NCBI GenBank assembly: GCA_013696745.1
Contig: JACCXZ010000008.1
Coordinates: 1 to 38,131, forward strand
Source: Nocardioidaceae bacterium
Lineage (GTDB): Bacteria > Actinomycetota > Actinomycetes > Propionibacteriales > Nocardioidaceae
Length of the DNA: 38,131 nt
Direction: 5' to 3'
In this document: piece by piece, positions 55-35,219 of the stretch
Layout: each line of letters opens with the position of its first letter
Numbering within the stretch: position 1 is the first letter of the stretch
Made by a program: the position numbers and the translations under genes
The notes under the pieces: model-generated
What the model was told of the DNA's origin: nothing
What the model saw: the letters and a program-made list of their open reading frames with translations, nothing else
Database searches by the model: none

Positions 55-1331
55 GGTGACTCACGTCAAGATGCGCGCGTAGCCGGCTTCGTTGACTCAT
101 GAGCGGATGCGCGCGTGAGGACTGGCTTGACGGCCGCTCGGGCCTTGCTGGTGGTCAGGGTCAGGAGCTGGGCGGTGCGGGTCTGGATCTGTCGTTGGAT
201 CGCGGCGGGATTCAGGTCGGCGTAGGTGTCGGCGAGGATCGCTTTGTCCTCGATGCTAACCGCGTCGTGTCGCTCGGCACGCCGGTGCGGCGTGGTCGCC
301 GTGTCGTACTTCTTGGTGACTTTCGCGCTGTCGCGGACCTTGGAGATGAGTTTCTGCTGGGGCAGGAAGTAGTTCGTCATCTGTGACTGCAGAGCCCAGA
401 TCTCGTTGAGTAGAGCCAGTTCTGCGGCTGTGTCGTAGCGGTGGTAGCCGACCACGGTGCGCACGACCGCCCAGTTCTTCTGCTCCACGTGGGCGCCGTC
501 GTTGCTGTTGCCGGGCCGGGATCGGGTGAAGGTGATCTCGCGTTTTTGGGTCCAGTCGAGCAGGTGGTGGTTGATGAACTCGCTGCCGTTGTCGGAGTCG
601 ACCCCCAGCACCGGGAACGGCATGATCGAGGCGATGTCCTCCAGCGCCGCGATCACCCATCTGCGGGCCTTGTTGCGCACGCTGCGGTTCTCGGTCCACC
701 CGGTGGCGATGTCGGTGACCGCGTCGTCCCACTGGGCCCAGGTGCGGATCGGGATCTGGTCCTTGAGCAGCGACCCGGGTTTGGTGTGCGAGCGTCCCTT
801 GAGCGCCAGCTTCGCGCGGTCTCCGGCCAGCCGGCGGTCCATGGTCGCAGCCGACATGACGACCAGCGCGGCGGCCGTCTGGTCGGCGATCGTCAGCTCC
901 TCGAAACGGCGCAAGGTCGGCACCAGCTCGCCCATCATCGGAGCCAGCCGTTTCCCGGTCGGTGCGCCGAGCACCGCCCAGCAGAACCGCAGCGCCACAA
1001 CGGTGTCCGAGTCGTACGTCGGGGTGCGGGGCTTCCGTGCCGGACTCACGATCCTGGGTCTCAACGCCGCGGCCAGCGCCTTGCGGGCGTGGTTGCGGTG
1101 CCATCCGGTGGTCGCGCACAGCTCGTCGAGGATCACACCCTTGGCCGTCTTGCCGGCCCGCTTGTACCGCGTCGCGATGGCCTTGGTCACGGCCCGCCGT
1201 TGGCTCATCGTCAGTCCCATGTTCGGGGCCTACCGGTCATCCCCCGACCGGGTCCGGCAGGCGCGCTCTACGCGCGCATTCCTAGATGAGTCAACGAACG
1301 CCTCTACGCGCGCACTTTTGATGAGTCAACG
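55..1331 (-). mobile_element. Insertion sequence with integrase-type (DDE) transposase and doubled terminal inverted repeats
   Basis: Repeat units TTGACTCAT-N5/6-(A)TGCGCGCGT occur at about 55-80 and 91-116, and inverted at about 1270-1295 and 1306-1330, bracketing the transposase ORF. No convincing target-site duplication seen. Confidence 0.8.
66..1220 (-). CDS. Integrase catalytic-domain transposase, probably defective (internal in-frame deletion)
   Basis: Contains GVDSDNGSEFINHHLL, FTRSRPGNSNDGAHVEQKNW and PQQKLISK...AKVTKKYDTATTPHRR, typical of this transposase family. The segment carrying the first catalytic Asp seems absent between TWAQWDDA and VTDIATGWTENRS. Confidence 0.85.
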   Translation of the reverse strand: MGLTMSQRRAVTKAIATRYKRAGKTAKGVILDELCATTGWHRNHARKALAAALRPRIVSPARKPRTPTYDSDTVVALRFCWAVLGAPTGKRLAPMMGELVPTLRRFEELTIADQTAAALVVMSAATMDRRLAGDRAKLALKGRSHTKPGSLLKDQIPIRTWAQWDDAVTDIATGWTENRSVRNKARRWVIAALEDIASIMPFPVLGVDSDNGSEFINHHLLDWTQKREITFTRSRPGNSNDGAHVEQKNWAVVRTVVGYHRYDTAAELALLNEIWALQSQMTNYFLPQQKLISKVRDSAKVTKKYDTATTPHRRAERHDAVSIEDKAILADTYADLNPAAIQRQIQTRTAQLLTLTTSKARAAVKPVLTRASAHESTKPATRAS

Positions 1332-26732: not shown

Positions 26733-27305
26733 TCAGGGGCGACGGCCGAGCAGCGCGAGTAGCCGTGCCTGAGGATCCTGCGAATCGGCGTGCACCGGAT
26801 CGTGGAAGAGTCCCGACCTGGTGAGCTCGTGCTCGTGTGCTCGGGCGTACGCGAGCACGTGGGCGACCACGTCGTCGTCGAGGTCCTCGCTCAGGCCGGC
26901 TCCACGCGCAAGATCCCAGGCGTGCACGGTGAGGTCCAGCAGCATCTCCTCGGCGTACTCATCGACCGGGCGCTCCCCCGATGACAGCTGCACCGTGTCG
27001 TCCGCACCGGCAACGGCCCAGGCGTCCATCGAGTCGTTGATGGCAAGCGTCCAGCTCTTCTGGGGGTTCGCATTGAGCACGTCCCCGTCGAAACGGGCAC
27101 CCACCTCTGCGGTGGTGGCCCCTTCGAGCAGTGGGACCGCCCACAGGTGCTCGACGACGAGGTGCCCGACCAGATCGCGCACCGTCCACTCGCTGCAGGG
27201 TGTCGGGCGGTCCCAAGCGTCGTCGGGGATGTCAAGGACACGGGAGCCGAACTCCTTGGCGGCGGTCGGCAGGAGGTCACGGGCGGACAGGCCGGTAGTC
27301 GACAT
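26733..27305 (-). CDS. TIGR03086-type metal-binding protein (maleylpyruvate isomerase-like/DinB fold)
   Basis: TPCSEWTVRDLVGHLVVEHLWAVPLLEG, LLDLTVHAWDLARGAG. Confidence 0.85.
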   Translation of the reverse strand: MSTTGLSARDLLPTAAKEFGSRVLDIPDDAWDRPTPCSEWTVRDLVGHLVVEHLWAVPLLEGATTAEVGARFDGDVLNANPQKSWTLAINDSMDAWAVAGADDTVQLSSGERPVDEYAEEMLLDLTVHAWDLARGAGLSEDLDDDVVAHVLAYARAHEHELTRSGLFHDPVHADSQDPQARLLALLGRRP

Positions 27306-27417
27306 GTCCCCAGCCTCGCGTGCGAGGGCACGCCTGTCATCCCGAAGACCCGCACCGGGTTCGGCGTCGTGTCATCTTCCAGAGGTGCCTCGCGGGTAGA
27401 TGCGACGAGGGGGTGCC

Positions 27418-27868
27418 ATGCGCGACAACGATCAGGGTTTTGCCGAGTTCGTCGCACGCGAGCTCCCCGGCCTGCTGCGACTGGGACGTGTCCTGACCCT
27501 CAACGAGCACGACGCGTGGGATCTGGCGCAGGAGTGCCTGGTCAGGGTCGGCACGCGGTGGTCGCGTCTGGACCAGGAAGCGAACGTCGCAGCGTACGCC
27601 CACAAGACACTTGTGAATCTCAACCTCAACCGGTTGCGCCGGCTCGCCCGTGAGCCCCCACTGGCCGTTGCAGACGCCCAGGGCGTCGATCAGGCAACCG
27701 TGGACGGCGACGCGGGAACCTACGACCCGTGGCTCGAGATCGCACTGAAGCGGCTGCCGCCGAGACAGCGGGCGGTCGTCGCCCTGCGCTTTCAAGACTC
27801 ACCTTTCGCGCGCCATGGTCTCGCTGCGGGAGGCCCGGCGACTCAGCAGTGCAGGAGAAATGCCATGA
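27418..27868 (+). pseudogene. SigE-family RNA polymerase sigma factor, frameshifted by internal deletion in region 4
   Basis: Region 2 (FAEFVARELPGLLRLGRVLTLNEHDAWDLAQECLVRVGTRW) and start of region 4 (LKRLPPRQRAVVALRF) in one frame; C-terminal KTHLSRAMVSLREARRLSSAGEMP* in the +1 frame from 27794. Its stop overlaps the next ATG (27865) as ATGA. Confidence 0.8.
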
Positions 27869-28200
27869 ACAGCGCAGAGTCCGAAGAGCTCGCTGCGCGC
27901 ATCCAGCGGCTGGCCGATCGCTGCGCCGCACCCCTGGACGCGCACGCACAGATCGTGGCAGGTGTCCGTCGGCGCAGGCGGCGGTACCGGGCTACCAGCG
28001 CGCTCGCGGTCGGCGCCGTGGTGGCCGTCCTGGGCGGTGTCTACGCGTTGGTCGGCCCGGTGAACCCTGCCGGACCGACCGAGGCCGTTGAACAGAAGAG
28101 TCTTGCGGCCGATCCGGAGACATCGATCACGCCTGAGCCTCCGCCGCTCACCGACACGGGCAGGGCCGTCACCTCGATCGCCTACTGCCTGGGCGACTGA
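27865..28200 (+). CDS. Small putative membrane protein, downstream partner of the sigma factor
   Basis: MNSAESEELAARIQRLADRCAAPLDAHAQIVAGVRRRRRRYRATSALAVGAVVAVLGGVYALVG, single TM. Start overlaps the sigma factor's ancestral stop. Confidence 0.7.
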   Translation: MNSAESEELAARIQRLADRCAAPLDAHAQIVAGVRRRRRRYRATSALAVGAVVAVLGGVYALVGPVNPAGPTEAVEQKSLAADPETSITPEPPPLTDTGRAVTSIAYCLGD

Positions 28201-28235
28201 CAGCCGCATGGCCGCAGTTGAGCCAGACTGTGCGG

Positions 28236-29339
28236 ATGCGGACCGTGGGCGTGGAGGAGGAGCTGCTGCTGGTGGACGCCGGCACGGGGGCTCCGGTGTC
28301 GGTGGCGCCGGCTGTACTGCGGCAGGAGGGATCGGGCCACGGCCACCACGAGGGCGAACAGCCGGGCGGCACGCTGGACTCCGAGCTGAAGCAGGAGCAG
28401 GTCGAGACCGACACCCGCCCACACACGGACCTGGCCGCCGTGGCCGAGGAGCTGTGGGCCTGGCGCCGGCACGTGGATGCCTCGGCCCGCGAGTCCGGCG
28501 CCCGGCTGGCGGCGCTGGCGACCTCTCCCGTTCCGGCCACCCCCCGGACCACGCCGACCGAGCGCTACCTCCGGATGGCCGAGCACTTCGGCCTCACCCA
28601 GCACGAGCAGCTTGCCAACGGGTGCCACGTACATGTGTCGATCGACTCGCCTGAGGAGGGCGTGGCCGTGCTCGACCGGATCCGGGTCTGGCTCCCGGTG
28701 CTGACAGCACTGTCGGCGAACTCGCCGTACTGGCAGGGGGCGGACTCGCTGTACGGGAGCTTTCGCTCCCAAGCGTGGGGGCGCTGGCCCATGGCCGGCC
28801 CGATCGACGTGCAGGAATCGGTCGAGCGCTACCGCGCCCTGATCGACGAGATGCTCGCCACCGGGGTCGTGCTGGACGAGGACATGGTGTACTTCGACGC
28901 CCGGTTGGCTCGGGGGTACCCCACGATCGAACTCCGTGTCGCCGACGTCTGCCTGTACGTCGAGGACGCGGTGCTGATCGCGGGCCTGGCCCGGGCGCTG
29001 GTCGAGACGGCAGTCGAGGAGTGGCGGACCGGCCGGGCGCCGGTGTCCACCCCGACGTCGTTGCTGCGTCTGGCGCGCTGGCGGGCCGCGCGCAGTGGCC
29101 TGACCGACGTCCTTGTGCATCCGCTGGACAACCGCCCTCGCCCGGCCGGCGAGGTCGTCGCCGCGCTGTTCGAGCACGTCCGACCGGCCCTGGACGCGGC
29201 CGGGGACCAGGAGCAGGTGCGGATGCTCCTGGCGCAGGTGCAGCAGCGGGGGACCGGGTCACACCGGCAGCGGCAGGTGTTCGAGCGGACCGGCCGGCTC
29301 TCCGCGGTCGCGTTGGATGCGGCAGACGTCACGTGCTGA
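28236..29339 (+). CDS. Glutamate-cysteine ligase GCS2 family / YbdK-type carboxylate-amine ligase
   Basis: MRTVGVEEELLLVDAGTG, DSELKQEQVETDT, ANGCHVHVSIDSPEEGVAVLDRIRVWLPVLTALSANSPYWQG, YPTIELRVADVC. Confidence 0.9.
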   Translation: MRTVGVEEELLLVDAGTGAPVSVAPAVLRQEGSGHGHHEGEQPGGTLDSELKQEQVETDTRPHTDLAAVAEELWAWRRHVDASARESGARLAALATSPVPATPRTTPTERYLRMAEHFGLTQHEQLANGCHVHVSIDSPEEGVAVLDRIRVWLPVLTALSANSPYWQGADSLYGSFRSQAWGRWPMAGPIDVQESVERYRALIDEMLATGVVLDEDMVYFDARLARGYPTIELRVADVCLYVEDAVLIAGLARALVETAVEEWRTGRAPVSTPTSLLRLARWRAARSGLTDVLVHPLDNRPRPAGEVVAALFEHVRPALDAAGDQEQVRMLLAQVQQRGTGSHRQRQVFERTGRLSAVALDAADVTC

Positions 29340-33019: not shown

Positions 33020-33382
33020 GCTGGTGTCGTGGGGCACGAGAGCCTCTGCTTCGTCGAGCCAGGAGAGGCTGGCCTCGGCGTGCACAACCCCCCCGCGCCG
33101 TGAGGCGGCTGAAGTCCGCTCCGGGATGATCGGTGAGCTGGTCGACGATGGCCTGGAGGTCAGCCAGGTGGAGCCCTACCGCTTCGCGGTGGCTGCGGAG
33201 CACCGGCCCGAGGGCATCGGGTCGTGCGTGGCGGGCCATGAATCGGTGATCTCGAAGACACGCTTGTCCGGCGCGGACGTTTGAGGCACGTGCGTTCCGC
33301 CGATCAGGTCGAGCTCCTCGAGGCGAGCGAGCTCGCGGTACAACTGGCTGCGCGGGATCGGCCAGAAGTAGGCAATGCTCCG
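33020..33382 (-). pseudogene. PadR-family transcriptional regulator remnant
   Basis: Fragments in three frames: DRSIAYFWPIPRSQLYRELARLEELDLIGGTHVPQTSAPDKRVFEITD; FMARHARPDALGPVLRSHREAVGLHLADLQAIVDQLTDHPGADFSRLTAR; VVHAEASLSWLDEAEALV. Confidence 0.78.
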
Positions 33383-33404
33383 GTCGGCGCAAGCCCTTAC
33401 GTCG

Positions 33405-35219
33405 TCAGCCCGTCCGCTTGGCGTACAGCGCCTCGACGTCGGCGGCAAAGTCGCGCATCACCACCGAACGCTTGACCTTGAGCGTGGGCGTGAGGTGCCC
33501 TGACTCCTCGGTGACGTCGACCGGCAGCACCCGGAACTTCTTGACCTGCTCGGCCGAAGACACCATCTCGTTGGCTGCATCGACGGCCCGACGCACCTCG
33601 GCCAACAGGTCGGCGTCCTGGGTCAGCTCGGCCACCGGCACCGACGGACGGCCCTGCTCCTGCAGCCACAGGGCCACCGACTCCGAGTCCAGCGTGATCA
33701 GCGCCGCGATCTGTGCGCGGCCGTCGCCGACCACAAGCGCCTGGCTGACCAGCACGTGCGAGCGGATCACGTCCTCCAGTGGCGCCGGTGAGACGTTCTT
33801 GCCCGCCGACGTGACCAGGATCTCCTTTGAGCGTCCGGTGATCGTGAAGTAGCCGTCGGCGTCGATGCTGCCGAGGTCGCCGGTGTGGAACCAGCCGTCG
33901 TCGTCGAGCACGTCGGCGCTGGCCTCGGGGTTACGCCAGTAGCCGGGGAACACGTGCCCCCCACGTACGAGCACCTCCCCGTCGTCGCCAGTACGCAGCT
34001 CGACGCCTGGCAGTGCGCGCCCGACGGTCCCGATCCGCGTGTGCAGCCGGGTGTTGACGGTGGTCGCGGCCGTGGTCTCGGTGAGGCCGTAGCCCTCCAG
34101 CACGGTGACGCCGATCCCGCGGAAGAAGTGCCCGAGCCGCGGACCCAGCGCTGCGCCACCGGAGACGCCCCAGCGCAGACGGCCACCGAAGGCCGCCCTG
34201 ATCTTGGCGTACACGAGCCGGTCGAACACCGCACGCTTCGCGCTCAGCAGCGGGCCCGGACGTCCGGTCTCCAGCGCCCGGCTGTAGGCGATGGCCGTGT
34301 CGGTGGCCATCGTGAAGATGCGCTCCTTGCCGTTCGCCGTCGCCTTGCGTCTGGCCCCGTCGTAGATCCGCTCGAAGACGCGGGGCACTGCCAGCACGAA
34401 CGTCGGCTGGTACGTCGGCAGATCCCGTGCCACGCGGGCGATGTCGGTGTGTCCGGTGCGCACCGCCGCGAGCAGCACAGCGACCTCGATCATGCGGCCG
34501 AAGACGTGCGCGAGAGGGAGGAACAGCAGTGTTGCTGCGTCCTCCTCCTCGAACAGCTCGGGCAGGAACTCGATGGCGGCCACGACCTCGGTGAGGAAGT
34601 TGCCGTGGGTGAGCTCGCAGCCCTTGGGACGCCCGGTGGTGCCGGAGGTGTAGATGATCGTGGCCAGGCTGTCCGGACCCAGTGTGGCCCGACGCGCATC
34701 CAACTCGGCCGGGTCCTGACCCCTTCCAGCGGCGATCAGGTCCGCCAGTGTGGACTCCTCACCGTCCAGCACCCAGTGGGCACGCAGGTCGGGAAGGTCG
34801 CCCAGCCCACGGAGCATGCTCGCGTGTGCCGGGCTCTCCACGATGGCAGCGACCGCCCCGGAGTCCCGAAGGACCCAGCGCAGCTGATCGGCCGCCGACG
34901 TCTCGTACACCGGCACCACGACGGCACCGGCCGCCCAGAGCGCTGCATCGACCAGGGTCCACTCGTACCGTGTCTTGGACATGAGGGCCACCCGGTCGCC
35001 GCACTGGATCCCGGACGCGAGGAATCCGCAGGCGACCTGCTGGACCTCCGCGGCGAACTCCGCCGCGGTGACCGGATGCCAGGTGTCACGCTCGCGCCGG
35101 TTGAGCACCACCCGGTCGGGAGTTCGTCGGGCGTTCGCCCCGATGATCTCGGCCAAGCTGGCGGGACGCCCCTCGCCCTCCCACCAGCGGTTTCGCGCAC
35201 TCGCTTCTTGTGCAGTCAC
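33405..35219 (-). CDS. fadD: Long-chain acyl-CoA synthetase, AMP-binding enzyme
   Basis: TIIYTSGTTGRPKGCELTHGNF, GYGLTETTAATTVN, WFHTGDLGSIDADGYFTITGRSKEILVTSAGKNVSP. Confidence 0.93.
   Translation of the reverse strand: MTAQEASARNRWWEGEGRPASLAEIIGANARRTPDRVVLNRRERDTWHPVTAAEFAAEVQQVACGFLASGIQCGDRVALMSKTRYEWTLVDAALWAAGAVVVPVYETSAADQLRWVLRDSGAVAAIVESPAHASMLRGLGDLPDLRAHWVLDGEESTLADLIAAGRGQDPAELDARRATLGPDSLATIIYTSGTTGRPKGCELTHGNFLTEVVAAIEFLPELFEEEDAATLLFLPLAHVFGRMIEVAVLLAAVRTGHTDIARVARDLPTYQPTFVLAVPRVFERIYDGARRKATANGKERIFTMATDTAIAYSRALETGRPGPLLSAKRAVFDRLVYAKIRAAFGGRLRWGVSGGAALGPRLGHFFRGIGVTVLEGYGLTETTAATTVNTRLHTRIGTVGRALPGVELRTGDDGEVLVRGGHVFPGYWRNPEASADVLDDDGWFHTGDLGSIDADGYFTITGRSKEILVTSAGKNVSPAPLEDVIRSHVLVSQALVVGDGRAQIAALITLDSESVALWLQEQGRPSVPVAELTQDADLLAEVRRAVDAANEMVSSAEQVKKFRVLPVDVTEESGHLTPTLKVKRSVVMRDFAADVEALYAKRTG

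Follow-up and report, generated by a model that had tools for sequence, protein, structure and literature searches.

A SigE-family sigma factor gene in a Nocardioidaceae draft genome, very probably broken and read through into its membrane-protein neighbour

A single open reading frame in a Nocardioidaceae bacterium joins region 2 of an ordinary, stress-type ECF sigma factor of the SigE family to a membrane protein, and raises the question of whether it encodes a functional chimera or is the remainder of a broken gene. We examined this locus within a window of 38,131 nucleotides, the whole stretch of contig JACCXZ010000008.1 that was analysed. Counting a real, recent deletion and an assembly error together, the sigma gene is very probably broken, and of the explanations weighed here we favour, with some reserve, a recent loss-of-function deletion. 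The parts of the locus are collected in the table.

Features of the fused reading frame and its junction (positions within the window)
Feature	Position	Strand	Content and basis
Fused open reading frame, 266 codons	27400..28200	+	sigma region 2 and start of region 4, then out-of-frame bridge, then downstream membrane protein
Surviving N-terminal part of SigE-family ECF sigma factor	27418..27792	+	region 2 intact, linker, first helix of region 4 (to LRF); Sigma70_r2, TIGR02983, alignment
Deletion junction	27792..27794	+	59 nt (20 codons minus one base) absent relative to homologues; 20-residue spacing in 29/29 loci
Surviving end of sigma gene in +1 frame, KTHLSRAMVSLREARRLSSAGEMP, stop TGA	27794..27868	+	best 12-mer of window
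Fusion bridge QDSPFARHGLAAGGPATQQCRRNA	27793..27864	+	codon usage of out-of-frame type
Downstream gene (111 aa, single membrane segment; anti-sigma-like from its position)	27865..28200	+	ATG overlaps sigma TGA; C-terminus possibly truncated

The layout of the junction can be read base by base. The sigma-frame segment LPPRQRAVVALRF ends with the codon TTT at 27790-27792, the C at 27793 is a single extra base, and the AAG at 27794 opens the tail in the +1 frame. This tail stops at a TGA (27866-27868) that interlocks with the start ATG of the following gene (27865-27867), and the two genes overlap by the four bases ATGA at 27865-27868. The sigma frame, meanwhile, stays open to 28200, and its length of 266 codons is counted from the ATG at 27400; the ATG at 27418, with GAGGGGG just 5' of it, is the likelier start. 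On re-reading the sequence we recovered the coordinates and frames that the first-pass annotation had given for 27785-27870, together with the ancestral overlap between the two genes and the joining of region 2 to the downstream transmembrane protein.

What remains of the sigma factor can be recognized on either side of the junction. Region 2 matches Sigma70_r2 (PF04542) at 33.5 bits against a cut-off of 24, retains the DAWDL and VNLNxNRLRR motifs in the alignment, and keeps 32 of 40 near-invariant positions with no clear decay; two of its eight departures, the two N residues of VNLNxNRLRR, also occur in an intact homologue (L023), which itself retains 31 of 42 such positions. This undecayed state points to a recent event. 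The full-length model TIGR02983, on the other hand, is reached only in part, with 76.2 bits against 141.55 and coverage of positions 3-124 of 162, and the helix-turn-helix of region 4 is incomplete (PF04545, 17.2 bits against 24.1, positions 1-18 of 50; PF08281, 14.7 against 25.7). Behind the junction, a 12-residue profile built from the C-terminal motif of the relatives' sigma factors was slid across all six frames of the window. Out of 64,786 stop-free 12-mers, KTHLSRAMVSLR at 27794 scored highest, at 18.7 against 11.9 for the runner-up, and the C-terminal remnant is thus real and not a chance match. Programmed frameshifting can be ruled out, as the helix-turn-helix residues are absent and not merely out of frame.

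Comparison with homologous loci fixes the size of the loss. All 29 homologous sigma loci of the same family (Nocardioidaceae) have a complete region 4, and in every one of them exactly 20 residues separate the LR-aromatic (or equivalent) motif from the K or R that opens the C-terminal tail. Since 20 codons (60 bases) stand there in every homologue and one base remains here, 59 nt are missing. The first-pass annotation had put the loss at about 20 residues with a length of 2 mod 3, an estimate that this comparison bears out and refines. It had also proposed setting the locus beside an orthologue, and the fused form is found at none of the 29 homologous loci. The nearest homologue, L023, lies in a different gene neighbourhood, and the comparison is one of homology and not of strict orthology. 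The relatives searched all come from outside the source genus: a DNA-level search of 59 of them gave short matches only and no orthologous DNA. Neither the sigma part nor the downstream protein brought up a relative in searches of genome contigs, and a search of plasmids gave none either.

We then consider whether the fusion itself calls for explanation. Over its 24 codons the bridge has a codon score of -0.36; genes of this genome read in frame have a mean of 0.25 (5% point -0.12), and open stretches read out of frame a mean of -0.51 (standard deviation 0.21). By these references the bridge resembles out-of-frame DNA, while the +1 tail, at -0.16, scores better than the bridge, yet is not typical. 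In this genome's genes a shifted frame is free of stops over 24 codons at 59% of positions for one shift and at 81% for the other; 59 is 2 mod 3, and one in three deletion lengths gives the phase needed for fusion. Deletions of this kind will therefore often yield an in-frame fusion. The first-pass annotation had also suggested that a second TCAAG might mark the far side of the deletion, but 27300-28300 holds no further copy, and TCAAG is simply the sequence of the junction.

Taken together, these features have the form of a deletion pseudogene: an out-of-frame loss set against intact homologues, with a recognizable remainder. In the explanation we favour, a 59-nt deletion would have removed most of region 4.2, the helix-turn-helix responsible for recognizing the -35 element, and shifted the frame, so that by chance the sigma frame would now continue into the anti-sigma-like membrane gene that overlaps it. 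A protein made from this frame would have region 2 but no means of recognizing the -35 element, would be tied to the membrane, and would most likely be non-functional. Twenty codons are missing, the end of the gene survives in the +1 frame, the ATGA overlap is intact and the homologues in relatives are complete. We infer three further points: that the organism's own DNA carries the deletion, as against the assembly alone, that the event is of recent date, and that function was lost with it. In favour of a real deletion we also count a second regulator gene of the window that is broken, a PadR-family gene at about 33020-33415 on the minus strand. Several small losses have removed its start and left its pieces in different frames (the N-terminal piece at 33242-33382, the C-terminal pieces in others), and relatives have the gene whole. 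Other genes of the window match their families well, among them those for a glutamate-cysteine ligase type, a mycothiol-dependent isomerase type, a catalase and an AMP-binding enzyme.

The chief competitor is a local error of assembly or consensus, in which the sigma gene would be intact in the organism and the contig would have lost 59 nt, for instance where a G+C-rich hairpin lies or where strain variants were merged. The genome is a fragmented draft (2.6 Mb in 202 contigs, 85% complete), and everything on both sides of the gap is intact, with region 2 before it and the tail and overlap behind it. Assembly errors account for many of the apparent pseudogenes in public genomes (PMC11017572), and for this reason the explanation retains substantial weight, even though we consider it rather unlikely. 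Against it, the loss of 59 nt where no long repeat flanks the gap would be an unusual consensus error, and the 30-nt flanks of the junction share no repeat of at least 5 bases. A coding-frame model run on sampled stretches, in a survey that bears on general indel error only and not on one local misassembly, and that is blind to losses as small as the 59 nt, found, in 213 kb of this genome, 6 changes of frame on the same strand at which no gene boundary is plausible, compared with 9 in 288 kb of relatives, single-contig genomes included; it flagged nothing in the window. With frame lesions at the background level of its relatives, the genome is not unusually frameshift-rich, and general indel error is not the cause. 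The first-pass annotation had left the choice between a chimera and a sequence or assembly error. Its description of the structure, a deletion of most of region 4.2 with read-through, holds, and the error it envisaged keeps its weight as a local one, while an ordinary deletion is the likeliest of these readings.

Its other proposal, a functional chimera, fares less well. Here a membrane-tethered region 2 would bind RNA polymerase without recognizing promoters and act as a decoy or competitor, and it is true that the fused frame is open, that region 2 is intact and that a membrane segment follows it. The absence of this form from all the homologous loci, the out-of-frame character of the bridge codons and the ease with which a shifted frame stays open, so that no selection is required, make the chimera very improbable. 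That the fusion is expressed and competes as a membrane-tethered region 2 with other sigma factors for RNA polymerase is, by our estimate, slightly more improbable again. A fusion that did exist, was expressed and had been selected would amount to a region-2 decoy bound to the membrane, for which nothing found here speaks and of which we know of no example.

The locus can be set beside several known systems. SigE-family ECF sigma factors (TIGR02983) stand next to a membrane-protein gene that often overlaps them, and our locus shares with these pairs region 2, the first helix of region 4, the KTHLSRA remnant and the ATGA overlap with a single-pass membrane-protein gene; it differs in that region 4.2 is lost and both genes lie in one frame. 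ECF sigma factors with C-terminal extensions do exist, in ECF41, ECF42 and other groups (PMC8103513). Like these, the fused frame would give one polypeptide with sigma sequence and a C-terminal part. The ECF41/ECF42-type groups retain both sigma2 and sigma4. Here, by contrast, sigma4 is incomplete ahead of the would-be extension, and the join lies outside the ancestral frame. The split sigma factor SigO-RsoA offers a sigma2 domain without a sigma4 domain, but RsoA has a separate partner, SigO, that supplies sigma4, whereas here a deletion scar is present and the rest of region 4 lies out of frame behind the junction; given that scar, a split factor of this kind is unlikely. With an ordinary bacterial deletion pseudogene, or with the assembly artefacts that resemble one (PMC11017572), our locus shares an internal out-of-frame loss, an intact remnant behind it and intact homologues elsewhere. 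It is set apart only by the chance joining of the shifted frame to the gene that follows. Left to automatic annotation, the locus would be recorded as a sigma factor of 266 aa with a membrane segment, and not as a broken sigma gene whose frame continues into the gene beside it. Outside annotation this matters little. The observation is accurate and the biology ordinary.

The downstream gene may itself have suffered. Most of the 29 homologous sigma genes are followed by a single-pass membrane-protein gene, often with the same 4-base overlap, and the counterpart proteins mostly have 199-455 aa; the one in L048 has 142 aa, and that in L042, which lies at the end of its contig, 86 aa. At 111 aa, the protein in our window is shorter than nearly all of them, and its stop lies 17 bases ahead of the earliest point at which the next gene could start. 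A second truncation is suggested by these lengths, and suggested only. The end of the 111-aa protein and the 199-aa counterpart in L023 have TSIAY in common, which hints at an internal loss, the match being too short for reliance. The protein scores 18.8 bits against 100 on the anti-sigma model NF052375, and we infer an anti-sigma role from gene order and the hydrophobic segment only.

Frame changes are also seen on other contigs of this genome. At least two of the six that the survey flagged are genuine split genes: a RibD_C-type reductase gene near L078:630 and an AAA_16-type ATPase gene near L074:13178, each divided across two reading frames. A LuxR-type gene near L074:10785 shows an apparent frame change. 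At the contig edge, finally, the window carries a transposase/integrase-like gene (66-1220, minus strand) whose rve core scores slightly under the cut-off, such a gene being a usual place for an assembly to break.
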